Source: Maribacter sp. 4G9 (lineage in GTDB: Bacteria; Bacteroidota; Bacteroidia; Flavobacteriales; Flavobacteriaceae). From it: a DNA stretch of 64,000 nucleotides. Shown here in pieces: positions 36,427 to 49,623 of the stretch. Within the stretch, counting starts at the first letter, position 1. Every line of letters starts with the position of its first letter. The notes beneath the pieces were generated by a model, which saw nothing but the letters and a program-made list of their open reading frames with translations, was not told the origin of the DNA and did no database searches. The position numbers and the translations under genes are program-made. The stretch lies in contig NZ_MDGL01000156.1 of assembly GCF_002742265.1 (NCBI RefSeq), positions 1 to 64,000 of the forward strand. The letters are read 5' to 3'.

Positions 36427-38149
36427 AGCGCCAACTTGTAAGATCTGCCCCCGTGGGGGCACTTTCCGCAATTCGTTTCATGATCTTTGGCACGTACATG
36501 GAGTTGTATCGCAACCTACTTATGGCATTAGGCAGCTCTGGATCACCGTTCCAGCAGTGCTCGGCCCGGTCCCCGTATAATACTTCCCCTTCATAATAGG
36601 GTTCTGTAGTGCTCTCCAAAAAATCCTCCATCAAATAGACCGCATTGTTCAGGTAGTAATTATCCATATCCCCGCAATAAATATGGATTTTACCTTTTAA
36701 ATTTTCTCCCAATTTTTCCCAATCACGCTCCATGATGTATCGAAGATCGTAATTCTCTTTCCAATATTCGGCAACCTTATGGTCAATATCCCCGGTCATT
36801 TTATCCCAAATTCTAACTGGATAGCCGTCATCACCTTGGGGAGAGTAGGTGGCTTCCCAAATATCCCATTGTTGTCCAGACCGGGATTTGTCCCCTAACA
36901 CCAATTCCAAATGGTTTCCCTGTCTCAAGGTCGATTGTATGTTTCCCAAATAATCCCGATGGGAAGGCACTTCCAATTTTTTGTGGACAGCATCATAGTA
37001 ATAAGCATTTTCATCCTCATAAATATTGGTAAGACAATAGGCCCGGAAATCGATTGGATCCGGACAAGCGGCAAAACAGCCATTGTATTCCTCCGGATAT
37101 TTTACCTGAACCGCCAAAGCCTCCCATCCTCCGGTAGAACCGCCATACAAGAAGCGAGACCATCCCTCGCCCATGCCCCTAAACTCTTTTTCGATATAAG
37201 GAATTAGTTCATAGGTGATAGCATCCCCATAAGGTCCTTGACTGGCCGAATTCACCGCATAGGAATCATCATAATATGGGGTTGGATGTTGAATTTCGAT
37301 GATCAAAAACCTAGGGAAATCCGGTTCGTTCCAACGTTTGTAAAAATCATAAGCCTCTTGTTGTTGGATGATGTTATATCCTTTCATATCAAACCTTGCG
37401 GAATAATCCGGCTCCAGATTAGGGTCCGGCGGGGTTGTCCGGAAGCCACTAAAATCCGAAGGGAAATGTCCATGAAAGACCATTAGCGGATATTTGGCTT
37501 CGGGGTGTTCGTTAAAACCCTTTGGCAACAATACATGGGCACCCAGATATATATCCCTACCATAGAACTCCGATAGTTTTTCGGACTTCATCTTAATGTG
37601 CTTTATCCACTCCGTATCCTCCGGCTCGGGTATTGGTGGAATTACCTGATCCATTTCCACGGTTACATTTTGAATGCCATTGCTACCCACTCTAATCTTA
37701 AAGGGCTTGCTGTACAAATTTCCGGGTGAGCTATTCCATTGCTGCCCTTCCCCATTATCCATAGGCAATTTTACGGTATGGCCCGTGGAAAGGTTAAACG
37801 TTTCATAGACATGAAGCAACGCCTGTACATTATATTCGCCCGGTGGTATTTGCGACATACTTGGGTAGGGATATCCAAAAACAGTTTCGTCAAAAGTAAT
37901 GGGCTTACCGGGAACCATACCGTCCACGTTCATTCCAAAGATCAATTGCGTGTTGAGGCCGTCATTGATTTGAAAACGGGGTTCCTTACTGTCATCGGAA
38001 GAAAACATGAGCAATAATCTACCATCTTTTCCCTCCGGGCTGGCAGATGCTGTAAAACTTACGTTCACATTATAAGTTGACTCCTTGACTTTTTGGCAAG
38101 CACCAAGCAGCAAGGCAGAGAGACAGGCAAAACAAAGAATTTTATTCAT
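36419..38149 (-). CDS. putative esterase lipoprotein
   Basis: A 576-residue lipoprotein (MNKILCFACLSALLLGAC). After a beta-rich N-terminal region of about 180 residues comes an esterase D-like alpha/beta domain (YLGAHVLLPKGFNEHPEAKY, PLMVFHGHFP) with the nucleophile elbow FLYGGSTGGWEALAVQ and candidate His late in the domain (YGDRAEHCWNGDPE). It may deacylate carbohydrates or siderophores; the target is unclear. A DUF2306 gene overlaps its 3' end by eight bases. Confidence 0.8.
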   Translation of the reverse strand: MNKILCFACLSALLLGACQKVKESTYNVNVSFTASASPEGKDGRLLLMFSSDDSKEPRFQINDGLNTQLIFGMNVDGMVPGKPITFDETVFGYPYPSMSQIPPGEYNVQALLHVYETFNLSTGHTVKLPMDNGEGQQWNSSPGNLYSKPFKIRVGSNGIQNVTVEMDQVIPPIPEPEDTEWIKHIKMKSEKLSEFYGRDIYLGAHVLLPKGFNEHPEAKYPLMVFHGHFPSDFSGFRTTPPDPNLEPDYSARFDMKGYNIIQQQEAYDFYKRWNEPDFPRFLIIEIQHPTPYYDDSYAVNSASQGPYGDAITYELIPYIEKEFRGMGEGWSRFLYGGSTGGWEALAVQVKYPEEYNGCFAACPDPIDFRAYCLTNIYEDENAYYYDAVHKKLEVPSHRDYLGNIQSTLRQGNHLELVLGDKSRSGQQWDIWEATYSPQGDDGYPVRIWDKMTGDIDHKVAEYWKENYDLRYIMERDWEKLGENLKGKIHIYCGDMDNYYLNNAVYLMEDFLESTTEPYYEGEVLYGDRAEHCWNGDPELPNAISRLRYNSMYVPKIMKRIAESAPTGADLTSWRYE

Positions 38150-38289
38150 ATGGGTCGGTTTTTGATAAAAAGGTAATCCATTTAATCAAGAATGCAAAAG
38201 CATACCATTTATAAAAACCTTTCGTTTAATACTATTATCAGATTGTTAGGTATCGATATGAAACCCTTACCACCCAAATCCTCATTGTT

Positions 38290-41204: not shown

Positions 41205-41627
41205 TCAATTCGATTCTGCTATTGGAAAAGGAAACAATGTCCCAATCTTCCGATAATTCCGCAAAGTTGGCAGGAGAGGTGAAAAAATATTAAAATCCAC
41301 ATCGTCATCTGAACTACTGTCGTCATCACTACTACTGGAATCCGATGTAATGGACCATGCTCCGGAAACGGAAGTTTTACCATTATCCGCAATGAGCCTT
41401 CCGTCAGACTCGAAAACAAATGTATGATTGGAAAAATCATTTGTCTCATCTACACCGTCCTCCTCAAAAAGAGCCACACGCCAACTGCCCGATGTAACGG
41501 TAGACTTGACCTGCTCCGCATTGACCATGTCATTTAAACCATTGGAATCATCAGAGGATTCACAGGATACGAATCCCAGACCTGTCAAGGCCATTATCAT
41601 TAAGCTTAATTTTTTTAGTTTTTTCAT
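41205..41627 (-). CDS. acidic single-module lipoprotein, frameshifted at an A6/T6 run
   Basis: The readable frame is 140 residues: lipoprotein signal MKKLKKLSLMIMALTGLGFV then SC, followed by a lipocalin-like module (SGSWRVALFEEDGVDETNDF) and a Ser/Asp run (SDSSSSDDDSSSDDDVD). After codon AAT the run of six T (plus-strand A at 41282-41287) shifts the frame. Adding one T restores FFTSPANFAELSEDWDIVSF, then SNSRIELKDISGGDGSIDRL and VFEKI with stop at 41149-41151. That tail is closely similar to the end of the 585-residue neighbour (ELTDDWEFVSMTQGRLELKD), which proves the intended frame. The true gene therefore spans 41149-41627 and is a paralogue of the neighbour's last module. Confidence 0.75.
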   Translation of the reverse strand: MKKLKKLSLMIMALTGLGFVSCESSDDSNGLNDMVNAEQVKSTVTSGSWRVALFEEDGVDETNDFSNHTFVFESDGRLIADNGKTSVSGAWSITSDSSSSDDDSSSDDDVDFNIFSPLLPTLRNYRKIGTLFPFPIAESN

Positions 41628-43479: not shown

Positions 43480-43505
43480 AACAACACGTTGAAAAAAAAC
43501 CCTAC
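43480..43505 (-). promoter_or_regulatory. candidate ECF-sigma promoter for the lipoprotein operon
   Basis: On the minus strand the sequence reads GTAGGGTTTTTT, eight bases, GTTGTT, ending 33 bases before the lipoprotein ATG. The identical two-part motif with the same N8 spacing precedes fecR at 44287-44312. Confidence 0.6.
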
Positions 43506-43528
43506 CTGCTTTTTAATTTTTTTTAAAA

Positions 43529-43536
43529 TATCTTTG
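43529..43536 (+). promoter_or_regulatory. candidate housekeeping -7 box for the sigma gene
   Basis: TATCTTTG is an exact match to the Bacteroidota TAnnTTTG box and ends 14 bases before the TTG start of the sigma gene. No clear TTG -33 box lies at the right distance. Confidence 0.4.
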
Positions 43537-43550
43537 AAAAAAACAGGACA

Positions 43551-44063
43551 TTGAAAGCTGACGAACCTCAAAATGTATGCAAGGAAAGTACGTACAGTAC
43601 TTTGTTCAATGCTTATTCAAAAACGATCTTCAACTACATATATTATAAGTTTGGCAATGAGGAGAAGGCAAACGATGCCGTACAGGAGGCTTTTGTAAAA
43701 CTTTGGGAGAACTGTGCCAAGGTCGCTCCGGAGAAAGCAAAGTCGTTTTTATATACAGTTGCCAACAATCTATACCTAAATGTTATCAAGGCCGAAAAGG
43801 TACGACTTAAGTATGCCGATAAATCCTTAAAGACCACCCAAGAGACTCCAGAGTTTCTCATGGAGGAAAACGAATTCAGGGCAAAATTGGACCAAGCTTT
43901 GAACGACCTGCCCGATAACCAGCGGTCTACATTCCTATTGAATAGGATTGATGGAAAAAAATATGTAGAAATTGCCGAAATGGAAGGAGTAAGCGTAAAG
44001 GCCATTGAAAAGAGGATGCATTTGGCCTTAAAAGCACTACGGGAAAAAATTGAGGGGATTTAG
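43551..44063 (+). CDS. ECF-type RNA polymerase sigma-70 factor
   Basis: A 170-residue ECF sigma factor starting at TTG 43551. Region 2 is TLFNAYSKTIFNYIYYKFGN followed by ANDAVQEAFVKLWEN. Region 4 is LNDLPDNQRSTFLLNRIDGK followed by YVEIAEMEGVSVKAIEKRMH (helix-turn-helix). It pairs with the FecR anti-sigma and TonB receptor downstream, the usual cell-surface signalling module: substrate binding at the receptor frees sigma through FecR. Its predicted targets are the two GTAGGG motifs described here. Confidence 0.92.
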   Translation: MKADEPQNVCKESTYSTLFNAYSKTIFNYIYYKFGNEEKANDAVQEAFVKLWENCAKVAPEKAKSFLYTVANNLYLNVIKAEKVRLKYADKSLKTTQETPEFLMEENEFRAKLDQALNDLPDNQRSTFLLNRIDGKKYVEIAEMEGVSVKAIEKRMHLALKALREKIEGI

Positions 44064-44082
44064 AAGTTGGGGGTTAGGAGTT

Positions 44083-44173
44083 AGTGTGATAGTGTGATAG
44101 TGTGATAGTGTGATAGTGTGATAGTGTGATAGTGTGATAGTGTGATAGTGTGATAGTGTGATAGTGTGATAGT
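44083..44173 (+). repeat. 8-bp tandem repeat, 11 copies
   Basis: AGTGTGAT is repeated exactly 11 times from 44083 to 44170, with a partial copy to 44173. It begins 19 bases after the sigma stop. No open frame uses it. Slipped-strand change would alter the spacing between the sigma gene and the fecR promoter. Confidence 0.9.
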
Positions 44174-44189
44174 AAAGTTAAAAATTTCA

Positions 44190-44284
44190 TTTTTGTACTT
44201 GACTCCTGTTTTTGAACTTGATTATTGTTTTTGAATTTGATTTTTGTTTTTGAACTTGATTTTTGTATTTGAACTTGAAATTTG
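44190..44284 (+). repeat. 19-bp imperfect tandem repeat, 5 copies
   Basis: Five units with consensus TTTTTGAACTTGATTTTTG run from 44190 to 44284 (starts 44190, 44209, 44228, 44247, 44266). The outermost copies have diverged most. The last copy ends two bases before the GTAGGG promoter motif. Confidence 0.85.
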
Positions 44285-44286
44285 AA

Positions 44287-44312
44287 GTAGGGTTTTTTAC
44301 TAGATAGTTGTT
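44287..44312 (+). promoter_or_regulatory. candidate ECF-sigma promoter for fecR-TonB receptor
   Basis: GTAGGGTTTTTT, eight bases, GTTGTT, ending 23 bases before the fecR ATG. It matches the minus-strand motif at 43480-43505 in both halves and spacing. Confidence 0.6.
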
Positions 44313-44335: not shown

Positions 44336-45250
44336 ATGCAAGAAAATTACTTGGCAAAATGGCTTAATAACGAGCTTACCGAATTGGAACTTGAGGAATT
44401 TAAGAAGTCCAAGGAGTTTGCCGCCTATCAGAGAATAGCGGATACATCCAAAAAGTTACAGGCACCTGACTTTGATAGTGCCAAGGCTTGGGAACTGCTT
44501 CAGGAATCAAAAGGGAAGCAAGAAACACCCAAGGTCATTAGCATATCCCCATTTAAGGCATTTCTTAGGGTGGCAGCGGTCATTGCCGTTTTGCTTACGG
44601 GCGCTTATTTTTATTTTGGAACACTTGATAAAACCATCATTACCAAGTTGGCCGAAAACAAGGAAATTTCCTTGCCCGATGCCTCTGAAATATGGCTGAA
44701 CGCGGAATCCAAACTGTCCTACAATGAAAAAAACTGGGACTCTGAAAGGGCCATCACCCTTGATGGCGAGGCCTATTTTAATGTAGCCAAGGGCAAAAAA
44801 TTTACGGTTACCACCGCACAGGGAACCGTTACCGTTTTGGGAACCCAATTCAATGTGGAGAACAGGGACGGATTTTTTGAAGTTACCTGCTACGAAGGTT
44901 TGGTGAGCGTACTTTTCAATGATGAGGAATTCAAACTTCCCGCAGGGAATTCTGCCATAGCCATTAACGGTCGTTTGAACAAATCAAAGGTTCAAATAAA
45001 CGGTCGGCCTTCTTGGGTGAACAAAGAAAGTTCTTTTAGGAGTATCCCTGTGAAATTTGTCATCTCGGAATTAGAGCGTCAGCATAATATCGAAGTCATA
45101 CTGGGAGATATTGATGAAAATCAACTCTTTACTGGGACCTTTAGCAATACAGATTTGGATTTGGCGTTGAAAAGTATAAGCACCCCTCTTAAAATTAGTT
45201 TTAAATTAGAGGACAACAAAGTGCTGTTCTATGAGGAAAGCGCCCCTTAA
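44336..45250 (+). CDS. FecR-family anti-sigma factor
   Basis: A 304-residue FecR protein. The N-terminal cytoplasmic segment (ENYLAKWLNNELTELELEEF) would hold the sigma factor. One membrane helix (FLRVAAVIAVLLTGAYFYFG, about 80-98) leads to the periplasmic FecR domain (ISLPDASEIWLNAESKLSYN, FTVTTAQGTVTVLGTQFNVE) and a C-terminal DUF4974 domain (FVISELERQHNIEVILGDID; FTGTFSNTDLDLALKSISTP). It senses the signalling domain of its receptor. Its end overlaps the start of the receptor gene by 20 bases. Confidence 0.93.
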   Translation: MQENYLAKWLNNELTELELEEFKKSKEFAAYQRIADTSKKLQAPDFDSAKAWELLQESKGKQETPKVISISPFKAFLRVAAVIAVLLTGAYFYFGTLDKTIITKLAENKEISLPDASEIWLNAESKLSYNEKNWDSERAITLDGEAYFNVAKGKKFTVTTAQGTVTVLGTQFNVENRDGFFEVTCYEGLVSVLFNDEEFKLPAGNSAIAINGRLNKSKVQINGRPSWVNKESSFRSIPVKFVISELERQHNIEVILGDIDENQLFTGTFSNTDLDLALKSISTPLKISFKLEDNKVLFYEESAP

Positions 45251-47759
45251 AACGCTTGCGGTACATTTTTTTTTACTTCTTCTGCCATTCCTTTCGAATA
45301 AGGGACTGGCACAAGAAATATCCCCGCCAAAAATTCAGGTGATTGGTTTACTTCAGGACTTGGAAAACGAATTCAACATAAAGTTTTCTTTTGCCGATGC
45401 CAATTTGGAGGATATTCAAATAAATAGGCCGGAGACCAATGAACTTGAAGCTTCCATTGCCTTCATTATGGCGCAGACACCCTTAGAAATAGAAAAACTT
45501 AGTGACCGATATTATTCCGTAGTTCTTAAAAAAACCATTTCCATTTGCGGTATGGTACTGGACAATTTTGAAAATAATACCATACCCGGTGCCACCGTTA
45601 GGGTTTTGGATTCTGAAACCGCCATGGTAACGAATATGGACGGGACCTTCACTTTAGATGAAGTGCCGCGCAGGGCGGTCATCCAAATCAGTCATCTAGG
45701 ATTCAAGCCCTATTTTATTCCGGCAGAAAAACTGATCAACAAAACCCCATGTACCGTCATAACCTTGGCCTTAAGTTACCAAGAGCTTGAAGAGGTGGTG
45801 GTCTATAAATTCCTTACGAATGGTCTTGCCAAGTTTTCCGATGGAAGCATCCAAATGAATACGGCCCAGTTTGGTATACTTCCCGGCTTGATAGAGCCGG
45901 ATATCCTACAATCCGCCCAATCATTGCCCGGAATCAAGAGTGTGGACGAAACCGTCTCAGACATAAATATCCGCGGGGGCACCAATGACCAAAACCTCAT
46001 TCTATGGGACGGCATTAAGATGTACCAGTCCGGTCATTTTTTCGGACTTATTTCGGCATTTAATCCCTATCTGACCGATAAAATTACCGTCATAAAAAAT
46101 GGGACCAGCTCCATATACGGGGATGGTGTGAGCGGAGTCATGGACCTGCGAACCAAAAATGAGATTCAAAGCACGATCTATGGTGGCGCCGGTTTCAACC
46201 TGATCAGTGGGGATGTTTACGGACAAATACCACTAGCAGAAAACTTGGCCGTACAGTTCTCGGGAAGAAGGTCCGTAACAGATTTTCTAGAGACACCCAC
46301 CTATACCACTTTTTCTGAAAAGGCCTTTCAGGACAGTGATGTTCTTACTGACAATGACTTTTACTTTTACGACTTTACCGGCAAGTTGTTGTACGATATC
46401 AACCCCTATCACAAAGTTAGGTTGAGCCTTATCCATATCAATAACGACCTTGACAATTTTACATTTAGTCCAGATGGCAATGGGGATACCGAAAGTTCCC
46501 TGGACCAAATCAACGTTTCATTCGGCGGAAGCCTTGAAAGCGAATGGACGGATAACTTTTATACCCAAGCAAACGTCTATTACACCCAATACCGGCTAAC
46601 GGCCTTTAGTATTACCGAAAGTGCATCACGGCAGTTGTACCAAAATAACCTAGTAAAGGAATCAGGCGCAAAACTCAACACTAATTACAGACTAACGCCC
46701 AGCTTGCAATGGACGAACGGCTACCAATTTACAGAAACGGGTATTGAGAATATTACACGAATAAACCTGCCCTTTTTTGAAAGTAGTGTTAAGGGTGTCA
46801 TTAGGTCGCACAGTCTGTACTCAGAATTAAGGTTTGAGACGGAAGACAACAGTCTTTTCGCCCAATTTGGGGGAAGATTAAATTATATCGGCAACATCAA
46901 TACCTTTGAGAAGGTTCTCATAGAGCCTAGGTTAAGTATTTCCTATGAGTTCGCACGCAATTTCAAGGTGGAGGCATTGGGCGAATTCAAGAGCCAATAC
47001 ACTAATCAGGTCATTGACCTGGAACAAAACTTTTTAGGTTTGGAAAGAAGAAGGTGGACCTTGGCAGATGGGAATGTGTTGCCCATAGTGCAAAGCAAAC
47101 AAGGGTCATTGGGTCTAAATTATGATGAAAACAGATTGTATGTGGGGATCGAGGCATTTTATAAAAATGTAACAGGTATCAATGTATATACCCAAGGTTT
47201 CCAGAATCAAAATCAGTTTGATGGCGAAATTGGGGAATACCTGGTAAAGGGTGTGGAATTTTTGGTCAACAAAAAAACGAACGACTATAGCGCTTGGTTC
47301 AGTTATGCCTATAATGACAATAAATACACTTTCAATACCTTAGTACCGCCCAACTTTCCCAACAATCTGGAGCTAGAACATTCGTTTACCCTGGCCGGAA
47401 ATTATATGTATAACGACCTCAAAATAGGTGTCGGCTTCAACTACAGATCTGGGAAACCCTACACTAGACCCGACTTTGGAAATCCCATTGACACCACCAT
47501 ATTTCCAAATGAAATAAACTATGAGACCCCAAACAGCAGTAGTCTACCAGAATATTTTAGGGCGGATGCCTCTGCAACCTATGATTTTAATTTAAGTCAA
47601 ACCGTAAGAGCATCGGTAGGTGCCTCAATCCTAAACTTTACCAATAGAAAGAATATATTGAATACATACTATAGGTTGGATGAAAATGACGAAATTGAAA
47701 CAATTCAACGAATATCTTTGGGCGTTACTCCAAATGCTAGTTTTAGGATTCGATTTTAA
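45231..47759 (+). CDS. TonB-dependent receptor with STN signalling domain
   Basis: An 842-residue outer-membrane receptor (signal MRKAPLKTLAVHFFLLLLPF). The order is an STN secretin/TonB signalling domain (about 35-95, LLQDLENEFNIKFSFADANL), a carboxypeptidase-like beta-sandwich (about 102-185, ICGMVLDNFENNTIPGATVR), a plug (LQSAQSLPGIKSVDETVSDI, NIRGGTNDQNLILWDGIKMY) and a 22-strand barrel ending in an aromatic-rich C terminus (NASFRIRF). The STN domain passes substrate occupancy to FecR. No SusD partner is present, so the ligand is more likely a metal chelate, cofactor or peptide than a polysaccharide. The ligand is unknown; the acidic lipoproteins nearby may be partners. Confidence 0.92.
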   Translation: MRKAPLKTLAVHFFLLLLPFLSNKGLAQEISPPKIQVIGLLQDLENEFNIKFSFADANLEDIQINRPETNELEASIAFIMAQTPLEIEKLSDRYYSVVLKKTISICGMVLDNFENNTIPGATVRVLDSETAMVTNMDGTFTLDEVPRRAVIQISHLGFKPYFIPAEKLINKTPCTVITLALSYQELEEVVVYKFLTNGLAKFSDGSIQMNTAQFGILPGLIEPDILQSAQSLPGIKSVDETVSDINIRGGTNDQNLILWDGIKMYQSGHFFGLISAFNPYLTDKITVIKNGTSSIYGDGVSGVMDLRTKNEIQSTIYGGAGFNLISGDVYGQIPLAENLAVQFSGRRSVTDFLETPTYTTFSEKAFQDSDVLTDNDFYFYDFTGKLLYDINPYHKVRLSLIHINNDLDNFTFSPDGNGDTESSLDQINVSFGGSLESEWTDNFYTQANVYYTQYRLTAFSITESASRQLYQNNLVKESGAKLNTNYRLTPSLQWTNGYQFTETGIENITRINLPFFESSVKGVIRSHSLYSELRFETEDNSLFAQFGGRLNYIGNINTFEKVLIEPRLSISYEFARNFKVEALGEFKSQYTNQVIDLEQNFLGLERRRWTLADGNVLPIVQSKQGSLGLNYDENRLYVGIEAFYKNVTGINVYTQGFQNQNQFDGEIGEYLVKGVEFLVNKKTNDYSAWFSYAYNDNKYTFNTLVPPNFPNNLELEHSFTLAGNYMYNDLKIGVGFNYRSGKPYTRPDFGNPIDTTIFPNEINYETPNSSSLPEYFRADASATYDFNLSQTVRASVGASILNFTNRKNILNTYYRLDENDEIETIQRISLGVTPNASFRIRF

Positions 47760-48876: not shown

Positions 48877-49623
48877 ATGAACACATTTTTACAAAATTTA
48901 CCGCTGTTTGCCGACGTAACAAAAATCGCTAATGACGATTATGTTGGTTTTACTTTTTTTGTAGGTTGCATGGCCATGATGGCAGCTTCAGCCTTTTTCT
49001 TTTTGTCAATGAACAATTTTGACAGAAAGTGGAAAACATCTATCCTAGTTTCAGGATTGATTACGTTTATCGCCGCTGTCCACTATTGGTATATGCGCGA
49101 TTATTGGTCAGGTGTGGGGGAATCACCCACTTTCTTTAGGTATGTGGATTGGGTATTGACTGTTCCCTTAATGTGCGTAGAATTCTACCTCATCTTAAAA
49201 GTGGCCGGAGCGAAAAAATCTCTCATGTGGAAACTCATTGCGGCTTCGGTAGTAATGCTAGTAACAGGTTACTTTGGCGAGGCAGTTTATCGTGACAATG
49301 CGGCCTTCTGGGGACTCTTGTCTGGTCTGGCCTATTTCTACATTGTATATGAGATTTGGCTGGGAAGTGCCAAAAAACTAGCGGTACAAGCGGGAGGTGC
49401 AACACTACAAGCACACAAAATGCTTTGCTGGTTCGTGCTTGTTGGTTGGGCCATATACCCCTTAGGTTACATGGCTGGAACGCCAGGTTGGTATGATGGT
49501 TTAGGAGGCCTTGGGCTAAATATGGATGTTATCTACAACATCGGTGACGCTATCAACAAAATTGGATTTGGTCTAGTAGTCTATGGTGCTGCGGTCGCTT
49601 CACAATCACCTGAGACAAAATAA
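48877..49623 (+). CDS. proteorhodopsin (light-driven proton pump)
   Basis: A 248-residue seven-helix rhodopsin. The helix C motif RYVDWVLTVPLMCVEFYLIL gives the acceptor D91, T95 and donor E102 (DTE pattern of proton pumps). Met99 at the spectral-tuning position (equivalent to Leu/Gln105 in the reference protein) predicts green absorption. Retinal is bound at Lys228 in GDAINKIGFGLVVYG. It is not a sodium pump, which would show NDQ. It pumps protons out in light and so adds to the gradient used for ATP and transport. It is a monocistronic unit ending at a strong hairpin. Confidence 0.97.
   Translation: MNTFLQNLPLFADVTKIANDDYVGFTFFVGCMAMMAASAFFFLSMNNFDRKWKTSILVSGLITFIAAVHYWYMRDYWSGVGESPTFFRYVDWVLTVPLMCVEFYLILKVAGAKKSLMWKLIAASVVMLVTGYFGEAVYRDNAAFWGLLSGLAYFYIVYEIWLGSAKKLAVQAGGATLQAHKMLCWFVLVGWAIYPLGYMAGTPGWYDGLGGLGLNMDVIYNIGDAINKIGFGLVVYGAAVASQSPETK

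Follow-up and report, generated by a model that had tools for sequence, protein, structure and literature searches.

What reads the two similar motifs that flank an extracytoplasmic function (ECF) sigma gene in Maribacter sp. 4G9, and which genes stand under its control? The question arises in the window, by which we mean the whole 64,000-nucleotide stretch of contig NZ_MDGL01000156.1 analysed here, where the sigma gene lies between a divergent lipoprotein operon and a fecR-TonB receptor operon. Taken together, the sequence evidence suggests, with a probability that we put at roughly 0.87, that the motif is a promoter recognised by the sigma factor encoded between its two copies, and that this protein is a surface-signalling sigma of the FecI/FecR type whose output includes a small RNA. 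The elements on which the argument turns are:

43480-43505, minus strand: putative promoter copy 1 (GTAGGGT-N13-GTTGTT), an exact match upstream of the lipoprotein gene
44287-44312, plus strand: putative promoter copy 2 (GTAGGGT-N13-GTTGTT), an exact match upstream of fecR
43551-44063, plus strand: ECF sigma factor gene, 170 amino acids, TTG start as listed, with Sigma70_r2 and Sigma70_r4_2 above gathering score
41689-43446, minus strand: acidic lipoprotein gene, 585 amino acids, divergent and downstream of promoter copy 1, from the open reading frame (ORF) list
44336-45250, plus strand: fecR-type sigma regulator gene, 304 amino acids, with Pfam FecR (3.1e-20) and FecR_C (1.1e-8)
45231-47759, plus strand: TonB-dependent receptor/transducer gene, 842 amino acids, with Plug and CarboxypepD_reg-like domains; its start overlaps the end of fecR

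The motif and its conservation with the sigma gene

The original prediction described the motif as GTAGGGTTTTTT-N8-GTTGTT, and both copies match this form exactly. Their inner spacing is equal, and they end 33 bases (minus copy) and 23 bases (plus copy) before the ATG codons, as had been claimed. Comparison over all 26 positions gives 19 identical ones rather than the 18 first counted, the nineteenth falling inside N8. The window holds no third copy, as originally stated, in a search that allowed up to 3 mismatches; in 100 shuffled windows, matches at this tolerance averaged 0.21, and two matches were reached in 2 of them.

Elsewhere in the window's genome (G000; Gnnn denotes genomes and Lnnn loci), a third exact 26-mer lies at C185:96348-96373. 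Reading 30 sigma-orthologue loci, including the window's own, gave the core GTAGGGT-N13-RTTGTT, in which GTAGGGT and RTTGTT are conserved and the long T run is conserved only in part. This refined strict form also matches C120:1458-1483 and C185:68671-68696 in the same genome, and C65 holds a copy with a spacer of 14. The copy at G000:C185:68671-68696 (L053, minus strand), GTAGGGTG..., has no obvious gene behind it.

The arrangement seen in the window recurs across related genera. Eighty named sigma loci were compared, from Maribacter, Zobellia, Arenibacter, Pricia, Muricauda/Flagellimonas, Eudoraea and others, overlapping partly with the G-handle genomes. The strict motif is found before fecR in 70 of the 80 and before the divergent lipoprotein gene in 78; tolerating a single mismatch in each box raises these counts to 77 and 80. 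Among the three loci that have no fecR motif is L170, whose sequence ends shortly after the sigma gene. Elsewhere in the 80 loci, the strict motif occurs once in 507 kb. Its placement is also conserved: 70 of the 75 fecR copies measured sit 20-24 bases upstream of the start codon, and lipoprotein-gene copies mostly lie 30-37 bases before theirs. By script, a fecR-sized ORF and then a long receptor-like ORF follow the sigma gene in 69 of the 80. The check proposed originally, whether the motif stands beside orthologous lipoprotein and fecR genes, is thereby answered in favour of conservation.

The distance between the sigma gene and the fecR motif differs among these loci. In the window, this interval contains 11.5 perfect copies of TAGTGTGA (44082-44173) and 4.7 copies of a 19-base unit (44190-44278). 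Because the distance varies among relatives, the number of repeat copies may vary as well.

The motif also follows the sigma gene from genome to genome. Among 36 genus genomes, 8 contain the exact 26-mer, with 16 occurrences in all (reversed control, 0). A scan of the same 36 genomes with the pattern GTAGGGTWW-N11-RTTGTT gave 127 matches (reversed control, 11), with at least one match in 32; the four motif-free genomes (G008, G019, G022 and G035) are exactly those that lack a close sigma orthologue. The comparison was extended to 64 chosen genomes from other genera of the family, a close sigma being defined by E below 1e-70. All 29 genomes with a close sigma contain the motif (116 matches, control 4, copies beside the sigma included), and 4 of 5 genomes with a sigma 54-58% identical contain one or two copies. 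The sigma-less sample comprised 30 of the 163 genomes without a sigma match, and 27 of these have no motif. In one exception, G065, a diverged sigma-FecR-receptor locus is present and is flanked by the motif on either side. The proposal that the motif is the promoter of the sigma encoded between its copies is therefore supported both by conservation and by absence of the motif where a close sigma is absent.

A separate observation concerns G108, in which the motif stands before a fecR-like gene (L301, G108:C2:350412) on a contig other than that of the sigma gene (G108:C4:90565). A rearrangement might account for this, or a second receptor system might share the promoter.

A predicted small RNA and tiny hydrophobic proteins under the motif

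The third exact copy, at C185:96348-96373, heads no protein gene. A PNPOx-family gene adjoins it, and the copy was considered as the promoter of that gene and rejected, since it points the opposite way. A terminator-like hairpin, AAGCTCGGGGTGGTTCCCGAGCTTTTC, starts about 75 bases after the motif. An RNA element of about 100 nucleotides is found behind the motif in 31 of the 36 genus genomes and adjoins the PNPOx-family gene (Pfam) in 30 of the 31, the other locus ending at a contig end. Six of the 10 pairs of the terminator show changes on both sides among 32 aligned sequences, and the stems differ widely in 27 further sequences. On folding, 6 of 6 sequences beat their shuffles on average (z -2.4 to -4.2). 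The start position and frame length vary across the sequences, and there is no conserved ORF. Its own putative promoter, the lack of a conserved ORF and an intrinsic terminator with compensatory changes together identify the element, as a prediction from sequence, as a small RNA (sRNA) gene. The conserved block TTTAGGTTGGTTTTTTGATT before the terminator is likely to be its pairing region. No Rfam family reached its gathering score at the three loci searched (L069, L076 and L100).

A covariance model of the RNA, which starts 6 bases after the motif and so excludes the promoter, was searched against 199 family genomes. With a threshold of E 1e-3, it matches 29 of 31 sigma-bearing genomes, 3 of which had supplied model sequences, against 6 of 168 others. 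Follow-up reading covered 30 sRNA loci out of 55 match rows. The motif lies upstream in 28 of these (23 strict, 5 with one mismatch), and the PNPOx neighbour is kept in 26. All 28 motif-bearing loci are in sigma-bearing genomes, and the 2 motif-free loci are in sigma-less ones; 3 of the 28 had been used to build the model. The motif is within 60 bases of the sRNA in 21 loci and farther upstream in 7, so the RNA is longer in some genera.

Loss of the sigma is accompanied by changes at this locus. The sRNA unit has been lost from the sigma-less genomes G019, G022 and G035, in which a neighbouring sibling RNA is retained. In G008 (83% complete, no sigma found), the unit is present, the first base of its -35 box is altered and the predicted fold has lost the terminator hairpin. 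The sibling RNA stands in tandem after the putatively sigma-dependent one, at L069 complement ~705-794 (G000:C185:96104-96193) and in 27 further loci. Both RNAs contain TATGAAAAAG; the sibling is equipped with a GAATAC...GTATTC stem and a terminator of its own, and the ECF-like promoter before it is another one, TGTAAGG-N~15-CGAC.

The element could instead be a short leader or a tiny-peptide gene (ATGAAAAAG...) rather than a trans-acting RNA. The start position is occupied by ATG or GTG in 33 of the 41 distinct sequences (one of them misplaced), and tiny peptides do occur among other members of the regulon. However, the frame ends after anywhere between 2 and 21 codons, and the start codon has given way to GTT in L080, ATA in L085, GTA in L100, CTG in L210, AGG in L212 and GCG in L226, while the later block TTTAGGTTGGTTTTTTGATT and a terminator that changes in sequence are kept. 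This makes a leader or peptide gene unlikely, and we favour an sRNA that may act in trans.

Such an RNA would be expected to base-pair with messenger RNAs, and the window contains one candidate site:

38153-38166, minus strand: candidate sRNA pairing site, 14 complementary bases immediately ahead of the ATG (38149) of a gene for a 576-amino-acid lipoprotein-like protein

The predicted duplex at this start, -21.4 kcal/mol, is the best of 45 start regions (mean -10.7, standard deviation 2.6), these being ATG ORFs of at least 150 amino acids in the window, some perhaps not genes, and 38149 being a selected result. None of 1000 mononucleotide shuffles of the sRNA core gave a duplex as good. Pairing with the regulon's own starts is unremarkable against the same mean (fecR -10.2, lipoprotein -8.1, receptor -12.7 kcal/mol), and these were set aside as targets. 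The full 14-base complement is found at the start of the same gene in G000, G030 and G005, and a 12-base form, CAAAAACCGACC, also in G007, G014 and G010, for a total of 6 of 18 Maribacter start regions, all from close relatives. The other 12 are without CAAAAACCGACC, and only G006 and G032 have short CCAACC or ACCAAC pieces. The 18 regions comprise 17 relatives and the window: of 20 stretches fetched, 18 matched the gene; L346 was partial and excluded, and L344 and L348 gave no match.

Two families of tiny hydrophobic proteins are also headed by the motif. The first is a 27-residue peptide, MK.FLAII..L.LFNAILL..SY..TK, followed by a terminator-like hairpin. In the window's genome it begins 52 bases after the motif (L004, G000:C120), and further loci were recognised by eye (L073, L103-L106, L112 and L305). 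The second is a 55-residue protein, MDV...FGY. Used as a query against the 199 genomes, it gave 26 stop-free matches in 25 genomes, after 4 matches with internal stops had been dropped (G164, G117, G175 and a second in G239); it is found in 24 of 31 sigma-bearing genomes versus 1 of 168 others. The motif precedes 10 of the 26 genes in strict form and a further 10 when one mismatch is allowed in each box (reversed control, none of 26). By eye or with a looser pattern, the motif of the window genome's copy has a spacer of 14 and that of three others has two mismatches. The two genes without a motif are a second copy that closely follows another one and the copy of a sigma-less genome.

Other genes under the motif were judged by eye from 34 loci, a subset of all copies found. 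Lipoprotein- or secreted-looking genes follow it in L107, L108, L110, L111, L298, L302-L304 and L307, and an iron-sulfur type protein gene in L299; no iron or siderophore transport gene was seen under the motif in the loci read. The regulon of receptor, anti-sigma and lipoproteins proposed originally holds as far as it went; it omitted the sRNA, the two tiny hydrophobic protein families and further lipoproteins.

The divergent operon itself has a second member:

41205-41627, minus strand: second lipoprotein gene of the operon, a 140-amino-acid ORF with a frame apparently interrupted near its 3' end

The C-terminus encoded by this ORF is unlike that of the 158-159-amino-acid ORFs of L120 and L124, and the gene may be a recent pseudogene or the product of an assembly error. 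The 585-amino-acid lipoprotein matches no Pfam family at E 0.001, and a long ORF occupies its place in 8 of the 8 relatives listed.

Recognition by the sigma factor and its alternatives

The sigma gene encodes a protein with PF04542 and PF08281 above cut-off, as expected of an ECF sigma factor. It scores 90.3 bits against NCBIfam TIGR02937 (sigma70-ECF; cut-off 42.9) and 121.7 bits against TIGR02985 (Bacteroidetes sigma-70 subfamily), below the cut-off of 126.4. The gene appears to have a promoter of another kind:

43529-43536, plus strand: sigma-A type -7 box (TAnnTTTG), TATCTTTG, before the sigma gene, read from the sequence

The housekeeping consensus TAnnTTTG is given in the available text of PMC9723704. 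It is found near the sigma start in 68 of the 80 named loci (reversed pattern, 4 of 80), mostly as TATCTTTG, 21-25 bases upstream among 30 loci listed. At motif-bearing promoters it is no commoner than chance (fecR 0/75, lipoprotein 4/79; about 4 expected each by shuffling), and it is present in 2 of 51 sRNA motif promoters. This distribution suggests that expression of the sigma probably depends on the housekeeping enzyme and that the sigma's targets wait for it.

The motif might nevertheless be the site of another regulator, either a transcription factor or a second sigma whose specificity overlaps with that of this one. Each genus genome has several sigma-like genes, and recognition by this particular sigma is a step that we infer from position and co-occurrence alone. 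Yet the site is asymmetric, with two boxes at a fixed inner spacing mostly 20-37 bases before starts; it is lost with the sigma and kept with the diverged sigma in G065; and the housekeeping boxes stand at chance level there. A different regulator is thus improbable, and the sigma encoded between the copies is the preferred candidate.

Several observations weigh against this preference or against the RNA arm that would accompany it. First, the 36 genus genomes contain 20-46 sigma-like candidates each on a first look, making a second sigma of the same specificity conceivable. Second, sigma-bearing genomes share ancestry, so that genome counts are not independent trials and Fisher values computed from them exaggerate the significance; losses within Maribacter are the cleaner test, though probably only two events, and G019, G022 and G035 do retain a sigma paralogue, 42-44% identical. 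Third, G077 (C2:39888-39913) and G102 (C1:607647-607672) have one strict copy each and no sigma match at E 1e-55; these single copies may be due to chance or to diverged systems. Fourth, the 6 genomes matched by the covariance model outside the sigma-bearing group become 15 at E 0.01, with the sigma-bearing number still 29, and G192 and G248, both sigma-bearing, have no sRNA-model match. Finally, a genome-wide search for the seed complement AATCAAAAACCAA with one mismatch gave 70 matches versus 57 in the control, no clear signal, and only a few of the 30 seed-match loci read adjoin a start codon on its 5' side.

Chance in a T-rich genome deserves almost no credence as an explanation for the likeness of the two copies: single-genome searches are uninformative, with loosened forms little or no commoner than reversed controls (22 vs 33 for the 26-mer at 3 mismatches; 23 vs 16 for the refined form at 1 mismatch), but conservation in the 80 named loci and the exact 26-mers in the 36 genomes refute it.

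Signalling and comparison with known systems

The FecR-type regulator beside the sigma has both PF04773 and PF16344, as in FecI/FecR/FecA-type systems. Assigning the first mature domain of the receptor required the predicted fold:

45312-45545, plus strand: STN-like signalling domain, receptor residues 28-105, the first mature domain (AlphaFold2 predicted local distance difference test score 84.5)

By sequence, Pfam STN does not match this domain in the window's receptor even at E 10, and a search of solved structures by sequence gave a best E of 0.28; the predicted fold was therefore used to identify the domain. The best Foldseek rows include FoxA, FecA (1zzv), PupB, FpvA and FecR-type anti-sigma entries (probability 0.85-1.00, E 0.02-0.4; the top rows for FoxA, FecA, PupB and FecR-type entries at 0.99-1.00 and E 0.02-0.1), with no row at E 0.001 or better; rows for other proteins of the same small fold are also present, including secretin N0 domains and, at rank 2, the methylesterase BT1017. 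Across relatives (49 of the 69 loci with fecR-receptor order, plus the window), sequence profiles find STN in 4 of 50 members and FecR_C in 39 of 50. On this structural prediction, the receptor carries an STN-like signalling domain, as FecI/FecR/FecA-type transducers do. An STN-like domain together with FecR is the anatomy of cell-surface signalling.

The proposed pathway would involve: reading of the sigma gene from its housekeeping promoter (-7 box TAnnTTTG); holding of the sigma by the FecR-type regulator; sensing of a ligand or of envelope state by the STN-domain receptor, upon which FecR would release or activate the sigma; and firing of GTAGGGT-N13-RTTGTT promoters. The latter would drive the fecR-receptor operon, as feedback, and the divergent lipoproteins. 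Further outputs would be the ~100-nucleotide, terminator-ended sRNA beside the PNPOx-family gene, the two hydrophobic peptides of 27 and 55 residues and, in part of the species, additional lipoproteins. On the best reading, this regulon content is nearer an envelope-homeostasis response than iron uptake.

A wider proposal is tentative, with somewhat less than an even chance of being right. The system may be an ECF regulon that includes a noncoding output, is coupled to FecR/STN surface signalling and evolved in Bacteroidota independently of enterobacterial sigma-E. Tandem sibling RNAs sharing the 5' block G(C/T)T(A/G)TGAAAAAG under two ECF-type promoters (GTAGGGT/RTTGTT and TGTAAGG/CGAC) would then let two envelope signals converge on one set of messenger RNAs, for example by covering the lipoprotein start at 38149.

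To our knowledge, the promoter specificity of most Bacteroidota ECF sigma factors is not known. Here, the analysis yields a promoter consensus, a likely sigma and a compact regulon for a set of flavobacterial genera, in which natural losses of the sigma serve as controls, and the sRNA and two unannotated tiny hydrophobic protein families gain a candidate regulator. The data also suggest that FecR/STN signalling in Bacteroidota may serve envelope homeostasis besides nutrient uptake, and the promoter specificity could be used as an expression tool in flavobacterial hosts. Apart from this system, the window contains a 248-amino-acid ORF at 48877-49623 that by eye resembles a bacteriorhodopsin-type protein, with a gene for a 289-amino-acid membrane protein nearby on the opposite strand.

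The enterobacterial sigma-E regulon has an sRNA arm consisting of MicA, RybB and MicL. The predicted system is similar in that the output of an ECF sigma includes envelope proteins and an sRNA. It differs in its regulator, which is RseA for sigma-E and FecR/STN here, and in the RNA itself, which matched no Rfam family (three loci); for the repression of outer-membrane protein messenger RNAs in the sigma-E response, no counterpart is claimed. The rteR sRNA of Bacteroides (Rfam RF04181) matches the L100 tandem RNA region weakly, at 31.9 bits against a gathering score of 72.

For Flavobacterium psychrophilum, the available text of PMC9723704 describes the SM6 promoters, a class of ECF type with a putative regulatory RNA, Rfp11, among its members. 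The likeness is that of a flavobacterial ECF-type promoter class with a putative RNA; the SM6 -10 box differs from the one here, Rfp11 is likened by description and not by sequence, and the available text names no GTAGGGT/RTTGTT class. Among the open-licence literature matches listed, no paper describes this promoter class or this RNA.

The closest known arrangement is FecI-FecR-FecA of Escherichia coli, with which the locus shares an ECF sigma, a FecR-type regulator with FecR_C, an outer-membrane receptor with a predicted STN-like domain and a putative sigma-specific promoter upstream of the receptor operon. In contrast to that system, the promoter here precedes fecR and the receptor together, and also the divergent lipoproteins, the sRNA and the tiny peptides. 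An ECF sigma with FecR and an STN receptor is of a known kind; this promoter class and its RNA may be new.
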